Positions 38,684 to 61,571 of a stretch of DNA of 61,616 bases are shown piece after piece. The notes below the pieces were generated by a model that was not told the DNA's origin, did not search any database, and was given only the letters and a program-made list of their open reading frames with translations. Positions within the stretch are counted from its first letter, which is position 1, and the number at the start of each line of letters is the position of its first letter. The stretch covers positions 1-61,616 of the forward strand of contig QCFH01000008.1 of NCBI GenBank assembly GCA_003278345.1. Direction: 5' to 3'. Origin of the DNA: Prochlorococcus sp. AG-363-C02. Lineage in GTDB: Bacteria; Cyanobacteriota; Cyanobacteriia; PCC-6307; Cyanobiaceae. Both the position numbers and the translations under genes were made by a program.

Positions 38684-40807
38684 ATGGTTTCACAAGGAAA
38701 AGAATCAAATAATACGAGTGCAGCTCTTGCTTCTAATGAAGTGGCCAATAATGCTTTCCCACTGGCTGCTGTAACAGGACATGGGACGTTGAAGTTGGCT
38801 TTAATGCTAGCTGCTGTTGACCCAGGTTTAGGTGGAGTGATTATTGCAGGTGGAAGAGGTACGGGGAAATCTGTATTAGCAAGAGGTTTGCATGCACTTT
38901 TGCCACCTATAGAAGTTCTTGATTTTTCATCTGTTGAGAAAACAAAAGGCCTCCGCCCTTTTGGAAGAAATCTTGACCCTAATTTCCCTGATGAATGGGA
39001 CGATGCTTCCATTGAGTTAATAAACCAAGAGAAAGAGCAGAGTTTTGGAGATGATTTGTCTCTTCCAACAAAAGTTGTACAAGCTCCCTTTGTTCAGGTT
39101 CCAATTGGCATTACTGAAGACCGTCTTGTAGGTTCTGTAGATGTTACGTCTTCTTTAGATAGTGGAAGTGCCGTATTTCAACCAGGATTATTGGCTGAAT
39201 CTCATAGGGGAGTTCTTTATATAGATGAGCTTAATCTTCTTGATGATGGAATTGTAAATCTTATGCTTGCCGCAGTTGGTGCTGGAGAGAATCAAGTTGA
39301 GCGAGAAGGTTTAAGCTTAAGACATCCTTGTAGACCTCTTCTTATAGCCACATATAACCCTGAAGAGGGAGCTGTAAGAGATCATTTGCTGGACCGCTTC
39401 GCAATTGTTTTATCAGCTGATCAGGTTGTAACGACCGAACAAAGAGTAGAGATTGCAGATTCTGCCATTGCATTTGGTTTTAGCAGTGAGTCTTTTTTAA
39501 AAAAATGGGAGGATTCTACAGAGGCTTTGGCTACTCAGCTTTTACTTGCTAGACAATGGCTGAATGATGTTGTTATAAGCAATGATCAAATTAAATATTT
39601 AGTTAATGAAGCGATAAGAGGAGGAGTTGAGGGCCATCGTTCAGAGCTATATGCTGCAAGGGTAGCCAAAGCACATGCTGCACTTTGTGGAAGAGATCAC
39701 GTAGATGCTGAGGATCTGCAGGTAGCTGTTCGTCTTGTTATTGCTCCAAGAGCATTACAGCTACCACCTGATGAAGATCAAATGGAACCTCCTCCTCCTG
39801 AGGATCAACAAGCTCCTCCACCTCCTCCAGAGGAATCTTCAGAGGATAGTGCCGAAGAGGAAGAGAATGAAGAAGAAGATACCCCTGAAGATGAATCTGC
39901 ACCCCCCATACCAGAAGAATTTATGCTCGATCCAGAGGCTTGTGCTATCGATCCTGACTTATTGCTTTTTTCTTCAGCAAAAACGAAAAGTGGAAATAGC
40001 GGTAGTAGATCTGCCGTATTTAGTGATAGTAGAGGCAGATATGTAAAGCCAATTATTCCTCGAGGACCTGTTTCAAGAATTGCTGTTGATGCAACTTTAA
40101 GGGCTGCTGCTCCTTATCAGAAGGTTAGAAGAGAAAGGAATCCAGGAAGAAAAGTAATAGTTGAAGAGAGTGATTTACGAGCTAAGCTTCTCCAAAAGAA
40201 AGCGGGTTCTCTAGTTATTTTCTTGGTTGATGCAAGTGGATCAATGGCATTAAATAGAATGCAAAGTGCAAAAGGAGCTTTGATTAGGTTGTTAACAGAG
40301 GCTTATGAAAGTAGAGACGAAGTTTCCTTGATACCATTTAGAGGAGAGCAGGCTGAGGTTTTGCTGCCTCCAACCAGATCTATAACAGCTGCTAAACGTA
40401 GATTAGAGACAATGCCTTGTGGGGGGGGTTCTCCTCTGGCTCACGGGTTAACACAAGCAGCAAGAGTAGGTGCAAATGCACTCTCTACAGGGGATTTGGG
40501 TCAGGTAGTTGTAGTAGCTATTACAGATGGTCGAGGTAATGTGCCTTTAAGCAAATCTTTGGGACAGCCTGAATTAGATGAGGAGGGCGAATCAATTGAT
40601 TTGAAACAAGAGGTTTTAGATGTTGCTTCCCGTTATAGAATGTTAGGAATTAAGTTATTAGTTATAGATACTGAAAGGAAATTTATTGCAAGTGGATTTG
40701 GGAAAGAATTAGCGGATGCGGCAGGTGGTAAATATGTTCAGTTGCCCAAAGCAACAGATCAGGCTCTTGCTTCTATAGCTATGGATGCAATTAATACAGT
40801 AAAATAA
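38684..40807 (+). CDS. chlD: Magnesium chelatase subunit D
   Basis: AAA+ subunit of the Mg-chelatase that starts chlorophyll synthesis by inserting Mg into protoporphyrin IX. The order is: AAA+ domain ([17 protein letters not shown], about 45-60), then a proline/acidic linker (about 360-420, strings of P, E and D), then a von Willebrand A domain with the MIDAS motif VDASGSM. I chose ATG 38684 (707 aa); the frame extends upstream to a TTG at 38666. An in-frame run of eight G (40431-40438) encodes glycines in the vWA domain. Confidence 0.96.
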
Positions 40808-47725: not shown

Positions 47726-47746
47726 TTTACGACTTATTTTTTAGCT

Positions 47747-55415: not shown

Positions 55416-55973
<558 letters not shown>

Positions 55974-56012: not shown

Positions 56013-56480
56013 ATGAAATCAGCAGTTACTACAGTTATTTCTTCCGCAGATGCCTCTGGACGCTTTCCTACAATTAGCGATATAGAGTCTGTAAAAGGAT
56101 CTTTTGATCGAGCTAATGCGCGTTTAGAAGCTGCCGAAAAACTTGCTGTGCATATTGATAGATTTACATCTGAAGCTTTGGAATATGTGTATGGAAAACA
56201 GTCCTTGGAGCAAGCAAACAAGGACAAGTGTGCTAGGGATATTCACCATTATTTAAGGTTGATCAATTATTGCTTGGTTACTGGTGGAACAGGTCCATTG
56301 GATGAATGGGGAATTGCTGGAATGCGTGAGGTCATTCGTGCACAACAATTGCCAACAATCGCATATATTGAATCATTTTCGTATATTCGTGATAATTTGG
56401 ATATTCCAAGTGATATGGGTCAGCAAGCAGCATCAGAGTTTAAAAGCTTACTTGATTATTTGATAAACTCTTTGGCTTAG
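56013..56480 (+). CDS. cpeA: Phycoerythrin class III alpha subunit (shortened, one bilin site)
   Basis: Alpha subunit (also ppeA), 155 aa against about 164 for ordinary alpha-phycoerythrin. The Cys82-equivalent is Cys73 in KDKCARDIHHYLRLINYCLV. The second site, normally a cysteine in an RDRLCVP-type turn (Cys139), is here RDNLDIP: Asp130, so that bilin cannot be attached. The missing residues lie before Cys73 (62-72 region). It lies 39 nt after cpeB and ends 32 nt before cpeZ. Reduced alpha subunits are known for low-light Prochlorococcus PE-III; the exact deletion needs alignment. Confidence 0.93.
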   Translation: MKSAVTTVISSADASGRFPTISDIESVKGSFDRANARLEAAEKLAVHIDRFTSEALEYVYGKQSLEQANKDKCARDIHHYLRLINYCLVTGGTGPLDEWGIAGMREVIRAQQLPTIAYIESFSYIRDNLDIPSDMGQQAASEFKSLLDYLINSLA

Positions 56481-56512: not shown

Positions 56513-57109
56513 ATGATATATGATGATCAAAATATTAGCTTGGATGATTTGTTTGATGATTTAGACCACCCTAATCCTAATATAAATAATCAAGCATATG
56601 AAAAAATGGCTCGGTTCTGGCCCGAACAGTCAATCCAGCGGTTAATTAAAAATTTAGATAGTAAAAATATTAACCTTAGGAGAAAATCTGTAAAAGGAAT
56701 TGCTTATTTTGGTGTAGATATAGTGAATAAGATAATCAATTTATATTGCTCTTCTAATAATGAAATTTTAAAGATTAGTTGCTTGAAAATATTGACTATA
56801 GTATGTTTTAATTATGATTTAAATCATTATCACGAGGAGTTGAATAGCTTAATTAAATCAGCTCTCGAAGAAGATTCACCTGAAATGATTTTATTAGCTA
56901 TTTCTTTGTTAAGACAAATAGGGGAGAAATCATTACCACTTTTAAAGCAATTATGTAAAGACATAAATATTTTGAAAGCAAAGGCTGCTATAACAGCATT
57001 GGTTGAAATTAACCATGTTTCACTTCAATCATTTTTATTGGAATTATCTCAAGATGATCAAATAGATGATTTTATAAGAGATAATGCTAAAGAGGCTTTA
57101 AGAGTTTAA
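56513..57109 (+). CDS. cpeZ: Phycoerythrin bilin-attachment chaperone CpeZ
   Basis: HEAT-repeat protein, 198 aa, that in other cyanobacteria acts as a chaperone-like partner of CpeY in chromophore attachment to phycoerythrin. The start has the acidic ISLDDLFDDLDHPNPNINNQ, a helical repeat near residue 50 is INLRRKSVKGIAYFG, and later repeats end with DNAKEALRV. It follows cpeA by 32 nt, likely in one mRNA. Its stop TAA interlocks by 4 nt (TTAA) with the stop of the leftward gene. Confidence 0.85.
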   Translation: MIYDDQNISLDDLFDDLDHPNPNINNQAYEKMARFWPEQSIQRLIKNLDSKNINLRRKSVKGIAYFGVDIVNKIINLYCSSNNEILKISCLKILTIVCFNYDLNHYHEELNSLIKSALEEDSPEMILLAISLLRQIGEKSLPLLKQLCKDINILKAKAAITALVEINHVSLQSFLLELSQDDQIDDFIRDNAKEALRV

Positions 57110-58024
57110 TTTTCAGACTTATTCTTTGAATGCCATTGATTAATTCTATCTATACTTAGATTTATAACTTTCTTCAGTTCAATATCTTTCTCCTTTGATA
57201 GTGTTAATTTCAACTGATCTATATGATTCATTGCATTTAGCTTCATAAGTGATAAAGCTGATTGCTTCCTTATTTCTGGATTTATATGTTCTAATTTAGA
57301 GGCTAATAAATCAAGATTCCAATTTTGTTCATTTAGCAATCCTATTAATTTTATAGCTTCAATTTGAACCTCAACTGATTTATCGTTTAATGCATTAGCA
57401 AGAATTTCTTTTGCTTCTTTATCTGAAAATGATTGAATTTGCTCTCCTAAAGCGGCAATAGAAGATGCACGAACTTTTTTATTGATAGACAATGAAGCTT
57501 TTTTAAGGGCTTCCCCCCCCCTTGGCGCCTATAAAAGCAAGTCCCCAACTGACAAGTCCACATTGCATTTCAGTGGTGGTTGGATTCTCTAGAACTTTTA
57601 TAAAATGCTCAATAGCCTCTTCTCCAAATACAGACATAGCCGCTACAGATGAACCTTGAACAACAGGATCTTTGTCATTAAGTAGAGCTTGTAGAAGATC
57701 TGGTAATGCTGAGGGATGGCCAACAAGTTTTAATGTTTTTGCAGCAGCTCTTCTTGCGGTTACACTTTGACTATTTAGTAACACTTTGCTTAAGAAGGGC
57801 AGTGCTTCTTCCCCTATCAAACCAAGGGTTTCTGAGAAGGTTCTTCTTAATTTACCTCTATTGTCAGAAAGACCAGCAATGATTTTTTTTATAAGATACT
57901 TATCTATCTTAGAGATATCTTTCTTTAGATGATTGCTTTTTAATTCTGCAGCTAAAGTAGATGCTTCTTCTTCATTAAGAGATGCATTTTCGTTGAAATT
58001 ATTTAAGTCTAATTCTTCTTCCAA
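57106..58024 (-). pseudogene. CpeF/MpeV-type HEAT-repeat bilin lyase, split by a one-base frameshift
   Basis: Two abutting frames make one HEAT-repeat protein. The first (58024 to 57503, 173 aa) has TAAKTLKLVGHPSALPDLLQ-type repeats and ends AFIGAKGGGSP at a premature stop; the second (to 57106) continues in another phase with ALKKASLSINKKVRASSIAA. The break lies at nine consecutive C on the plus strand (57513-57521). Eight would restore one 305-aa frame, near the CpeF/MpeV size. CpeF attaches the doubly linked bilin of the beta subunit. The assignment to CpeF rather than another E/F-type HEAT lyase (MpeU, CpeY) is by size and context. Possible explanations are a sequencing error, slippage, or a real mutation. 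Confidence 0.72.
57513..57521. repeat. Homopolymer of nine C at the frameshift
   Basis: TT-C9-TT on the plus strand, i.e. nine G on the coding strand of the HEAT lyase gene, between AAG and AAGCCC. With nine G the frame hits a stop two codons later. With eight it reads through. A run this long is unusual in such an AT-rich sequence. Confidence 0.9.
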
Positions 58025-58100: not shown

Positions 58101-59435
58101 ATGGAATCAGGTAATTTTGACACTCTTCCTCAGTTGAGTAAAAATGATGCATTGAGAATTCTCAAGACCTCTTTAGAAAATTTAAGCCTTTCTAGTGACT
58201 ACTATAAAGCAGTTTTTCACTTATCTAAATATCCTTCTCCTGAAACAGAGCTGGCATTATTAGAATTGGTAAAGAGTAAATCTTCAAAACAGGCTGTACT
58301 TATAGGAAAGAGAAAGGCAATAGAGGTTTTAGGAAAGATGCAATGTAAAAAGGCAATTCCTTATATCGGAGAAAGTTTAAATAGCAGTGATCCCTATATT
58401 GTTGAGAACTCAGCTTTGGCTCTAGCCGATTTAGGTTGTAAAGAATTAAAAATTCATCATTTGATTGGTAATTTATTAGATAAACCTAATCAAAACAAAA
58501 GGGCTTTAATTAAGAGTCTTGGCAAGATGCGAGCATTTTCAGAATTATCAAAAATAAAAGAAATCTTTTCACAGAAAGATTTACCCCTAAGTATTAAGTG
58601 TGCTGCCATTGTCGCAATTTCAAATATTACGGGCAAACTTGAAAATATTGAACTCTTATCTGATTTATTAGATTCACTTAATCAAAATCAACGTATATGT
58701 GCTGTTCAGGATATTATAGATGCTAAGGCATATAAATTAATTCCTAGAGTTCTTAAAACCCCAATATCTCCTTTTTTTAGAATACAAGCGGTAATCTCTT
58801 TACTTCCAAGCAATTATAATAAATTAAAAAAGATTAGTATTATTGATTCACTTGATTCAATAGTTATTGATGAACCTAATAATATGAATTTAGATAAAAA
58901 TTTAACTACAGAAAGTAATTATGAATTTTTTATTGAAGAATTATTTAATCCAGATTTTAATAAGTCTTATTTTGCCTTAAGTAAATTAAAAGAAATTAAT
59001 TCTAAAATATTATTTAGTAAACTTAATCTTTATTGGAATAAATTTAAGAAAGATTATGGAGCTCTTTATTTCCTAATTATCTTGTTTAGATATTTAGATA
59101 TATATGAAAAACAAGATACAGCAAAAGCATTAGAAATGATAGATTATTGCTTAGATAAATCTTGGCCTGATAATATGAAATTTAAGCCACAAGCAATTTT
59201 TTCATCTATATATATTGATCTAAATTTCTTTTTTGAAAATATTGTTAATTGGTTAGACTATAAGAAAAATAAATATTGGTTTTCAAGATATACAGCTTTA
59301 TTTGCAATAGAAAGACTAATAGAAAATAATAGAATATCCTTGAGTCAAATAAAATTTCTAAATGATATAGATGAATCTAATGCATTTGCAAGATTAAAAC
59401 TAAATTTTATAATCAATAAATATTTATTATCTTAG
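58101..59435 (+). CDS. cpeY: Phycoerythrobilin lyase CpeY
   Basis: HEAT-repeat E/F-type lyase, 444 aa, that with CpeZ attaches phycoerythrobilin to alpha-phycoerythrin Cys82 in other cyanobacteria. Repeats include FHLSKYPSPETELALLELV (about 40), KRKAIEVLGKMQCKKAIPYI and VENSALALADLGCKELKI; the C-terminal half is less regular. Length is close to the family (about 430-440). The target cysteine is kept in cpeA as Cys73. It is divergent from the split HEAT gene (76 nt) and convergent with cpeT. Confidence 0.85.
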   Translation: MESGNFDTLPQLSKNDALRILKTSLENLSLSSDYYKAVFHLSKYPSPETELALLELVKSKSSKQAVLIGKRKAIEVLGKMQCKKAIPYIGESLNSSDPYIVENSALALADLGCKELKIHHLIGNLLDKPNQNKRALIKSLGKMRAFSELSKIKEIFSQKDLPLSIKCAAIVAISNITGKLENIELLSDLLDSLNQNQRICAVQDIIDAKAYKLIPRVLKTPISPFFRIQAVISLLPSNYNKLKKISIIDSLDSIVIDEPNNMNLDKNLTTESNYEFFIEELFNPDFNKSYFALSKLKEINSKILFSKLNLYWNKFKKDYGALYFLIILFRYLDIYEKQDTAKALEMIDYCLDKSWPDNMKFKPQAIFSSIYIDLNFFFENIVNWLDYKKNKYWFSRYTALFAIERLIENNRISLSQIKFLNDIDESNAFARLKLNFIINKYLLS

Positions 59436-59462: not shown

Positions 59463-60038
59463 TTATTGAATACGATCAAATTCTAGAAATCCATTCATTG
59501 ATCCCCAAACCTTTTTGTTTGTTTTAATGTCAAACCCCTCATCTTTACTTGATAATTTTTCTTCGCTAAGTCTAATTTGACTAATAAGGTATGTATCTTT
59601 GCCATTCATCTTTACTATGCATTTTTTACACTCTTTTAAGCATCCATCATAGTAACCTTTTAGTTTTTCTTTAAAAATAAGCTCACAATTTTCTCTAATA
59701 TGAAGCTTATCTAGGGTTATCATCTTCAAAAATTCAAGGTTAAAACCTGCACCGGCTATTCTATCTTGGTTAACTATTTTATAATTATATAAAACAAATA
59801 AATCTTTTTCTGCTGACAATCTTAGTACTGCCTGTCTGTAAGGAGACCACGGAGAGTGATTGTAACTTTGTTCAGTATAAATTGAGATTCCTTCAAAAAT
59901 CTCCCAAGGTAATAACCTAAAGTATATATTTATATTTGAATATAGAGATGGTTCTTTCTCTGATTGCTTTGCATTACTAAATTTACCACAAAGTGTCTTT
60001 AAGAAACGTTTTTGAGATTGATCATATAGATAATTCAT
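59463..60038 (-). CDS. cpeT: Phycoerythrobilin lyase CpeT
   Basis: T-type lyase, 191 aa, which attaches the bilin at beta Cys163 (about 165 in other numbering). Features are the RLLPWEIFEGISIYTEQSYN core, YRQAVLRLSAEKDLFVL, and the end EGFDIKTNKKVWGSMNGFLE followed by FDR, typical of CpcT/CpeT. It starts 3 nt after the cpeS stop, so the two are coupled. Convergent with cpeY (27 nt between stops). Confidence 0.9.
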   Translation of the reverse strand: MNYLYDQSQKRFLKTLCGKFSNAKQSEKEPSLYSNINIYFRLLPWEIFEGISIYTEQSYNHSPWSPYRQAVLRLSAEKDLFVLYNYKIVNQDRIAGAGFNLEFLKMITLDKLHIRENCELIFKEKLKGYYDGCLKECKKCIVKMNGKDTYLISQIRLSEEKLSSKDEGFDIKTNKKVWGSMNGFLEFDRIQ

Positions 60039-60041
60039 TAT

Positions 60042-60581
60042 TTACTTTTTGGCATTAATATTACGTATTTCAGACGCAAATGATGTTTGTAAAATAGCCT
60101 TTGTATCTATTGATCTAATTACTGATGAGCGACATCTTACATCATCATTAATAAACCAGATTCTTTCTTCTGCAATAGTTTGGTTATATTCTGTTGATAA
60201 AAGTATTGTTCCATCTGATAAAAAATTAAAATTTGAAATTGCTTCAATTTCTTCTGCATAGCCTATACTTCTTAAAAAAATTCCTGTATGTAATGAGTAA
60301 GCTATAGGAATTAATAAACTAGAGCCAGACATCTCTTTATCGCGATTGTCTTCATGCCAATTTGAATGGCCTTGCCACTTTATTTCGAATGGAAAAATAA
60401 CTTTCTTGTTTTTGAATTTACTCTTATTAAGAAAACTTATAACCCTTGATTCTTCATTGCTAAGGATTTTAATGCTTAAATTGCTTACGACTTCTTCGAA
60501 TTGCTTGAAGGCAAGAGAATGGCCACTTCTCATTGAAATCCAATTACCCTCACTTTTTTTGAGGAAAGACTCAATATCCAT
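60042..60581 (-). CDS. cpeS: Phycobilin lyase CpeS
   Basis: S-type lyase, 179 aa, serving beta Cys82. The start MDIESFLKKSEGNWISMRSG, the conserved HSLAFKQFEEVVSNLSI and the downstream FPFEIKWQGHSNWHE beta-barrel pattern are typical of CpcS/CpeS. It lies 12 nt after the 55-residue unknown and 3 nt before cpeT, in a likely ppeC-orf55-cpeS-cpeT operon. Confidence 0.9.
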   Translation of the reverse strand: MDIESFLKKSEGNWISMRSGHSLAFKQFEEVVSNLSIKILSNEESRVISFLNKSKFKNKKVIFPFEIKWQGHSNWHEDNRDKEMSGSSLLIPIAYSLHTGIFLRSIGYAEEIEAISNFNFLSDGTILLSTEYNQTIAEERIWFINDDVRCRSSVIRSIDTKAILQTSFASEIRNINAKK

Positions 60582-60773: not shown

Positions 60774-61571
60774 CTACTTTTTAATTACGTTATCACTGGA
60801 AGCAAAACCTTTTCTGTAAGAGGCTGTTTTAACAAAGCTTGATGTCTTCATACCATATGGAGAGTTCCAACACCGTTGAAATGGGACTATATTTTCTCCG
60901 AACTGTTTGGTATATTCTGTGGAATCTATTAAGTAGTCAATATGAGCATAGATACCTTCTTTGAATATTATATTTATATTTTTTATTAGTTCTTCATCGT
61001 CAAAAATTGGCCTACCCAATATATGCATAAACCGTAGTTTGATTGATGCTTTTTGGCTAACTTGATTTACAAAATTGTCTAAATAAAAGTCTGATTTTGC
61101 AAGGCCTCTAATAAATTCCCGTATGGGAATATCCCCATTCCTTAGTCTTCTTTCTAGTTCTTTTGGTATTTCACTTTCCATTGGTTTTAAGTTTCCATAT
61201 ACTTGCTTGTATGAAGCTATTACAGCAATATTTAATGATTCATCACTGTAAGGCTCGAATTGGTCATATGTAAAATCATCTACGTTGTTAAATATATAGT
61301 TATGGCCTTTATATTCATATGAATAATTATATTTTTCCCGTTTATATGCTCTACTCATTCTTATCATATTCCTCTCTGTTATCTCTCTAGGTTTATTAGC
61401 AGAACTTATAACAAATATATCTTTTCTGCCAGGCATGCAAGTGCTTCTTCCATGCATAAAATAGGATAAATTATTGCTTCCAGATACGCGTGATTTACCA
61501 TAACTAAAATACCTACCCTCTATAATCTCAGAGAGTTTTGATTCTAGCTTATACCTTGAAGTAAATAACAT
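60774..61571 (-). CDS. ppeC: Phycoerythrin linker PpeC (class III gamma/linker)
   Basis: A 265-residue protein with a phycobilisome linker domain (about 105-235): SDESLNIAVIASYKQVYGNL, IREFIRGLAKSDFYLDNF, LGRPIFDDEEL and DYLIDSTEYTKQFGENIVPF. The N-terminal ~100 residues are basic and contain one cysteine, Cys45 (RSTCMPGRKD), a possible bilin site but unproven. PE-III linkers of this kind occur in low-light Prochlorococcus. It begins the leftward operon. Confidence 0.9.
   Translation of the reverse strand: MLFTSRYKLESKLSEIIEGRYFSYGKSRVSGSNNLSYFMHGRSTCMPGRKDIFVISSANKPREITERNMIRMSRAYKREKYNYSYEYKGHNYIFNNVDDFTYDQFEPYSDESLNIAVIASYKQVYGNLKPMESEIPKELERRLRNGDIPIREFIRGLAKSDFYLDNFVNQVSQKASIKLRFMHILGRPIFDDEELIKNINIIFKEGIYAHIDYLIDSTEYTKQFGENIVPFQRCWNSPYGMKTSSFVKTASYRKGFASSDNVIKK

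Follow-up and report, generated by a model that had tools for sequence, protein, structure and literature searches.

The extra base that divides a putative bilin lyase gene, mpeX, in a Prochlorococcus draft of the single-cell type is most probably an artefact of amplification, sequencing or assembly rather than a biological change. The gene would then be an ordinary mpeX, intact in the living cell, whose product would act at CpeB Cys50/Cys61, where the bilin is doubly linked, a function taken by analogy from characterised members of the family. The additional base would have arisen outside the cell, at one of the steps between amplification and assembly. Breaks of the same kind recur at G/C runs of at least eight bases in such drafts.

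Results

A lyase gene divided at a nine-G run

The window that we analysed, 61,616 bases long, is the entire contig 8 of the draft genome G000 (1.42 Mb in 42 contigs, 77% complete). At its right end, cpeB and cpeA are followed by a cpeZ-like gene, the split minus-strand gene and then cpeY, cpeT, cpeS and a gene with a linker domain, at the following coordinates.

55425-55973, plus strand: cpeB, phycoerythrin beta subunit (NF058508, E = 2e-94), with Cys50, Cys61 and Cys82 present
56013-56480, plus strand: cpeA, phycoerythrin alpha subunit (NF058506, E = 2.5e-77)
56513-57109, plus strand: cpeZ-like HEAT protein (HEAT_2), named from gene order and the initial annotation
57106-57492, minus strand: putative mpeX, 3′ piece in the +1 frame, 128 amino acids as listed from a TTG (HEAT_2, E = 1.2e-12)
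57503-58024, minus strand: putative mpeX (CpeF/MpeV-family bilin lyase), 5′ piece of 173 amino acids with a TTG start (HEAT_2, E = 4.3e-24)
57513-57521, minus strand: run of nine C on the plus strand, nine G on the coding strand, with a +1 frame change
58101-59435, plus strand: cpeY, homologue of the alpha-Cys82 phycoerythrobilin lyase (NF058505, E = 2.2e-64)
59463-60038, minus strand: cpeT (PF06206, E = 4.1e-50)
60042-60581, minus strand: cpeS (PF09367, E = 3.5e-54)
60774-61571, minus strand: protein with a phycobilisome linker domain, near the contig end (PF00427, E = 3.5e-38)

No named CpeZ model matched the HEAT protein at 56513-57109 in our profile scan, and CpeY scores 217.6 bits against NF058505, under the curated cut-off of 600.

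Read along the minus strand, the first frame of the split gene opens with the TTG at 58024, runs through the nine-G tract and meets a stop just beyond it, ending at 57503; the second frame, listed from the TTG at 57492, continues to a stop at 57106. The initial annotation had regarded the two as one HEAT-repeat protein split at 57513-57521, and the pieces do align consecutively to one intact homologue, matching residues 1-172 and 168-291 of a single 298-amino-acid protein of the complete genome G001 with 61% identity each. The length of 305 amino acids given there for the joined protein agrees with the span of 919 bases from 58024 to 57106. The division of the frame is not a chance arrangement, since both pieces match this one protein and share one intact neighbour in the tree described below. 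As assembled, the gene lacks the single intact open frame that is a trait of the CpeF/MpeV/MpeU/MpeX family, and no second copy of mpeX was found in the 77% of the genome that is represented. Compared with the nearest relative by the Nei-Gojobori method, each half has an omega of 0.17, which lies within the range of the controls, and both halves look to be under selection, with no visible decay.

The tract at 57513-57521 is the only C/G run of nine or more bases in the window. The other C/G run of at least eight, eight G at 40421-40428, is in frame within a gene matching a 707-amino-acid protein of G001. An apparent frame change at position 47739 is no break but the point where two small genes meet; from their translations we take these to be psbF and psbL.

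Identity of the gene and its target

Clade, host and gene order together identify the product of the split gene as MpeX, a published, as yet uncharacterised member of the lyase family from low-light Prochlorococcus. MpeX is the subfamily name that PMC7948978 gives for low-light Prochlorococcus marinus, and its activity is described there as uncharacterised; our literature search found nothing on MpeX in Prochlorococcus beyond that paper. The initial annotation had proposed a CpeF/MpeV-type lyase. Its choice of family stands, on the HEAT repeats, the gene order and the tree, and the name is refined to that of the published subfamily. Both HEAT_2 and HEAT_PBS matches mark the protein as carrying HEAT/PBS-lyase repeats. 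No model specific to the CpeF/MpeV/MpeU/MpeX lyases matched in the NCBIfam scans, and the sequence matches in the PDB were mostly to artificial HEAT repeats, with a weak match to CpcE/CpcF (5n3u).

The lyase tree, like our other comparisons, was made without named sequences of CpeF or MpeV. In it the two window pieces group with the intact gene of the nearest relative (L002), inside a genus clade of 13 rows with support 100/98. The gene had also been placed between cpeZ and cpeY, as the window annotation confirms with a cpeZ-like gene on one side and cpeY on the other. The order cpeZ, opposite-strand lyase, cpeY is found in 13 of the 20 regions fetched from the family; one further region (L263) is truncated where its contig stops, and six (L244-L249) differ in order, among them four with two copies (L244-L247), in which one lyase copy adjoins a second cpeBA-like pair. 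The likeness to MpeX of low-light P. marinus thus comprises a HEAT-repeat protein of about 300 amino acids in the relatives, one copy found per genus genome, a position on the opposite strand between cpeZ and cpeY beside cpeBA, and membership of the genus clade; the window copy differs in being interrupted by the +1 change at its nine-G run. With MpeV of Synechococcus RS9916 and CpeF of Fremyella diplosiphon, the gene shares its family, as given in PMC7948978, and its co-presence with a beta subunit bearing Cys50 and Cys61. These two lyases, which that paper describes as acting on CpeB Cys50/61, are nevertheless set apart by its description, which assigns them to subfamilies separate from MpeX.

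Twelve of the 14 genus genomes contain mpeX; the two with no match, G010 (54% complete) and G013 (67% complete), likewise have no cpeB match. Ten of the 11 genus copies other than the window's are single open frames of 298-309 codons. The eleventh, in G004 (L012/L037), has a +1 break at a run of eight G in another part of the gene (G004:C2:39322-39329). A comparison of the tract among relatives, which the initial annotation had suggested, indicates that it is not kept, as all 11 of these copies have at most four consecutive G at the corresponding site, and the nearest relative, L002, differs there at several bases.

The window CpeB retains both Cys50 and Cys61, as had been stated earlier, and Cys50, Cys61 and Cys82 are kept in all 12 genus copies that we read. 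A wider sample of the family comprised 121 genomes. Eighty of these have a strong cpeB match (E of 1e-60 or better), every one of which also has a match to the lyase family, and one more genome, G028, has the lyase with no cpeB match. Among the 81 lyase-positive genomes, the gene is broken in G000, cut by a contig end in G014 and open across the match in the other 79; although one TAA was flagged in it, the G028 lyase forms a single frame of 306 codons. Four complete genomes of the genus g17 (L236-L239), probably representing high-light Prochlorococcus, have only a diverged beta subunit in which Cys61 and Cys82 are kept and Cys50 is lost, and all four are absent from the lyase-positive group. 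Given this co-occurrence of lyase and cpeB, and the loss of Cys50 in g17 genomes with no lyase match, retention of Cys50 and Cys61 predicts a working lyase in the lineage of the window.

Frame changes at long runs in drafts and complete genomes

The +1 break in the mpeX of G004 led us to a census of long runs. Every one of the 14 genus genomes has runs of at least eight G, and at least 88 were listed, with G012 represented in part and G013 by none. We examined 84 of the 88 listed runs, reading those outside G001 by tblastn with G001 proteins. A second set came from nine complete and twelve draft genomes in other genera of the family; it took the first 30 loci from each search, less any repeats. 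Genomes were called complete when their listed completeness was at least 99% in one to seven contigs. A run was counted if homology to a G001 protein extended across it and if it lay beyond residue 30 of the reference open reading frame.

Within the genus, 8 of 42 counted runs were broken in drafts versus 0 of 10 in the complete genomes G002 and G003, which is not significant alone (p = 0.33); in the other genera, 3 of 10 draft runs were broken, as were 0 of 15 from complete genomes. When the sets are combined, 11 of 52 G/C runs of at least eight bases are broken in drafts versus 0 of 25 in complete genomes (Fisher p = 0.013). Earlier counts, made under slightly different rules for each set, were 8/44 versus 0/11 (p = 0.19) and 3/10 versus 0/15 (p = 0.052), with a joint p of 0.013. 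All 11 breaks are +1 changes, an excess that stems in part from having chosen runs of at least eight after the event, which favours insertions. No A/T run of the same minimum length was broken, whether among the 44 in the genus drafts or among the 15 in G002 and G003 (0 of 59 in total), and the A/T and G/C break rates in the genus drafts differ with p = 0.0022.

Several runs fell outside these counts. Two apparent frame changes at G/C runs near the reference start, at L296:1501-1509 in a draft of another genus and at L042 in G004, lie within the first 30 reference residues, where the true start may be later; three in-frame runs (L057, L085 and L022) were left out by the same rule. Runs that homology did not span were likewise left uncounted, 22 of them in genus drafts (where L066 repeats the run in L065), one in G003, and, in the other genera, 12 in drafts and eight in complete genomes. 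The six runs of G001 itself, the reference genome, were read from open frames only and showed no clear break. A frame change in G003 (L026) does not lie at a long run.

The break sites in draft genes are G/C runs of 8-10 bases. The mpeX gene contributes two of the 11 breaks, those of G000 and G004. G000 has another in pstS, outside the window (L033:1501-1509; G000:C3:20946-20954), again a +1 change at a nine-G run as in mpeX. Other genus drafts are broken in prs (L053) and rodA (L073) of G009, icd (L092) of G012, a MetA-like gene (L035) of G004 and queC (L059) of G006, and drafts of other genera (L307, L317 and L320) in aspS, a gene for a protein weakly similar to a repair helicase, and tsaE. 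For icd, the sequences of G005 and G012 can be set side by side: nine G in frame versus ten G out of frame, with one substitution in about 70 bases. The search for second copies, which among the other broken genes covered prs and icd, found neither a second prs in G009 (75% complete) nor a second icd in G012 (89% complete), the split pieces being the sole close matches. PRPP synthase, isocitrate dehydrogenase, aspartyl-tRNA synthetase and TsaE are essential or nearly so. As a class, the breaks are best read as error because living cells should not carry prs, icd, aspS and tsaE in broken form.

Run length itself offers a weak argument for error. Runs of at least ten bases make up 13 of 67 runs in drafts versus 0 of 18 in G001-G003 (p = 0.06), and none of the runs listed for these three complete genomes exceeds nine; in complete genomes of other genera, 2 of 23 runs are of ten or eleven bases. 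Some drafts contain G/C runs of 12-14 bases, namely L061 (G006:C16:26467-26480), L079 (G010) and L085-L087 (G011), and that of L061 is in frame inside a gene.

Discussion

The breaks described here resemble the homopolymer indel errors of single-cell drafts in being +1 changes at long G/C runs, in striking unrelated as well as essential genes and, in our material, in being confined to incomplete drafts; they are probably errors of that sort. From its 77% completeness, its 42 contigs and its neighbours, we infer that G000 is a single-cell genome. Plate AG-436, which yielded the nearest named relative, AG-436-C13, belongs to the set of PMC6122165, and G000 presumably represents the same kind of data. 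For three benchmark cultures, the account of that workflow gives a mean of 3.0 indels per 100 kbp. The workflow paper (PMC5519541) names the NextSeq 500 as the instrument and reports that P. marinus benchmark genomes tended to have the fewest indels, a tendency that counts against reading the break as an error.

The initial annotation had allowed that the break might be real, with the lyase lost and the bilin either absent or attached in another way. A recent slippage mutation in this one cell could have inactivated mpeX and left Cys50 and Cys61 unmodified or less well filled, and a nine-G run is a natural site for such slippage. The cell can presumably live without the gene, the incomplete G000 yielded no second copy, and a very recent inactivation would leave both halves looking selected, as they do. 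We nevertheless consider such a loss unlikely. A break of this kind, which sister drafts also show in prs, icd, aspS and tsaE, is not easily taken for a tolerated mutation, the complete genomes have no break among 25 runs, and the lyase family accompanies strong cpeB in 80 of 80 genomes. A broader version, in which the poly-G breaks of low-light Prochlorococcus are real genetic differences between individual wild cells that slippage in transcription or translation makes tolerable even in essential genes, with mpeX as one gene so tuned, seems to us very improbable. Slightly less credible still is that the breaks are real in the DNA and rescued by slippage of RNA polymerase or the ribosome, so that intact protein is made. 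Such rescue would account for the breaks in essential genes and for continued selection on both halves of mpeX, but complete genomes should then share the breaks, and the contrast between 0 of 25 and 11 of 52 (p = 0.013) speaks against this.

It had also been suggested that the tract alternates between eight and nine bases. As a contingency switch between two lengths, it would turn the lyase on and off and so tune the pigment. Two of the 12 mpeX-bearing genus genomes are indeed broken at a G run, and the gene shares with phase-variable loci a simple repeat within the reading frame. However, the runs of G000 and G004 are at different places, the window site has no such tract in the other genus copies, and the breaks extend well beyond mpeX and beyond switchable or dispensable genes, as prs, icd, aspS and tsaE attest; judged by titles, our search found no literature on homopolymer phase variation in Prochlorococcus. 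We therefore give the switch very little credence. That the gene has become two separately translated pieces, forming a two-subunit lyase, is extremely improbable. The TTG at 57492 does follow shortly after the first stop, and the protein is weakly similar to CpcE and CpcF, the two HEAT subunits of one lyase, but no listed relative is split at this place and the general explanation, an error of the draft, already covers the break.

For the biology of the organism, an error of the draft means little, as the cell probably has an intact lyase and fills the pigment site normally. For the family, it means that about one fifth of the tested, homology-covered coding G/C runs of at least eight bases in incomplete Prochlorococcus-family drafts have a broken reading frame (11/52). 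An isolated frameshift in a run of this kind, when considered without reads, should therefore not be called a pseudogene or a switch. If the break in mpeX were true, a natural test of the role of MpeX would be available in the genus.
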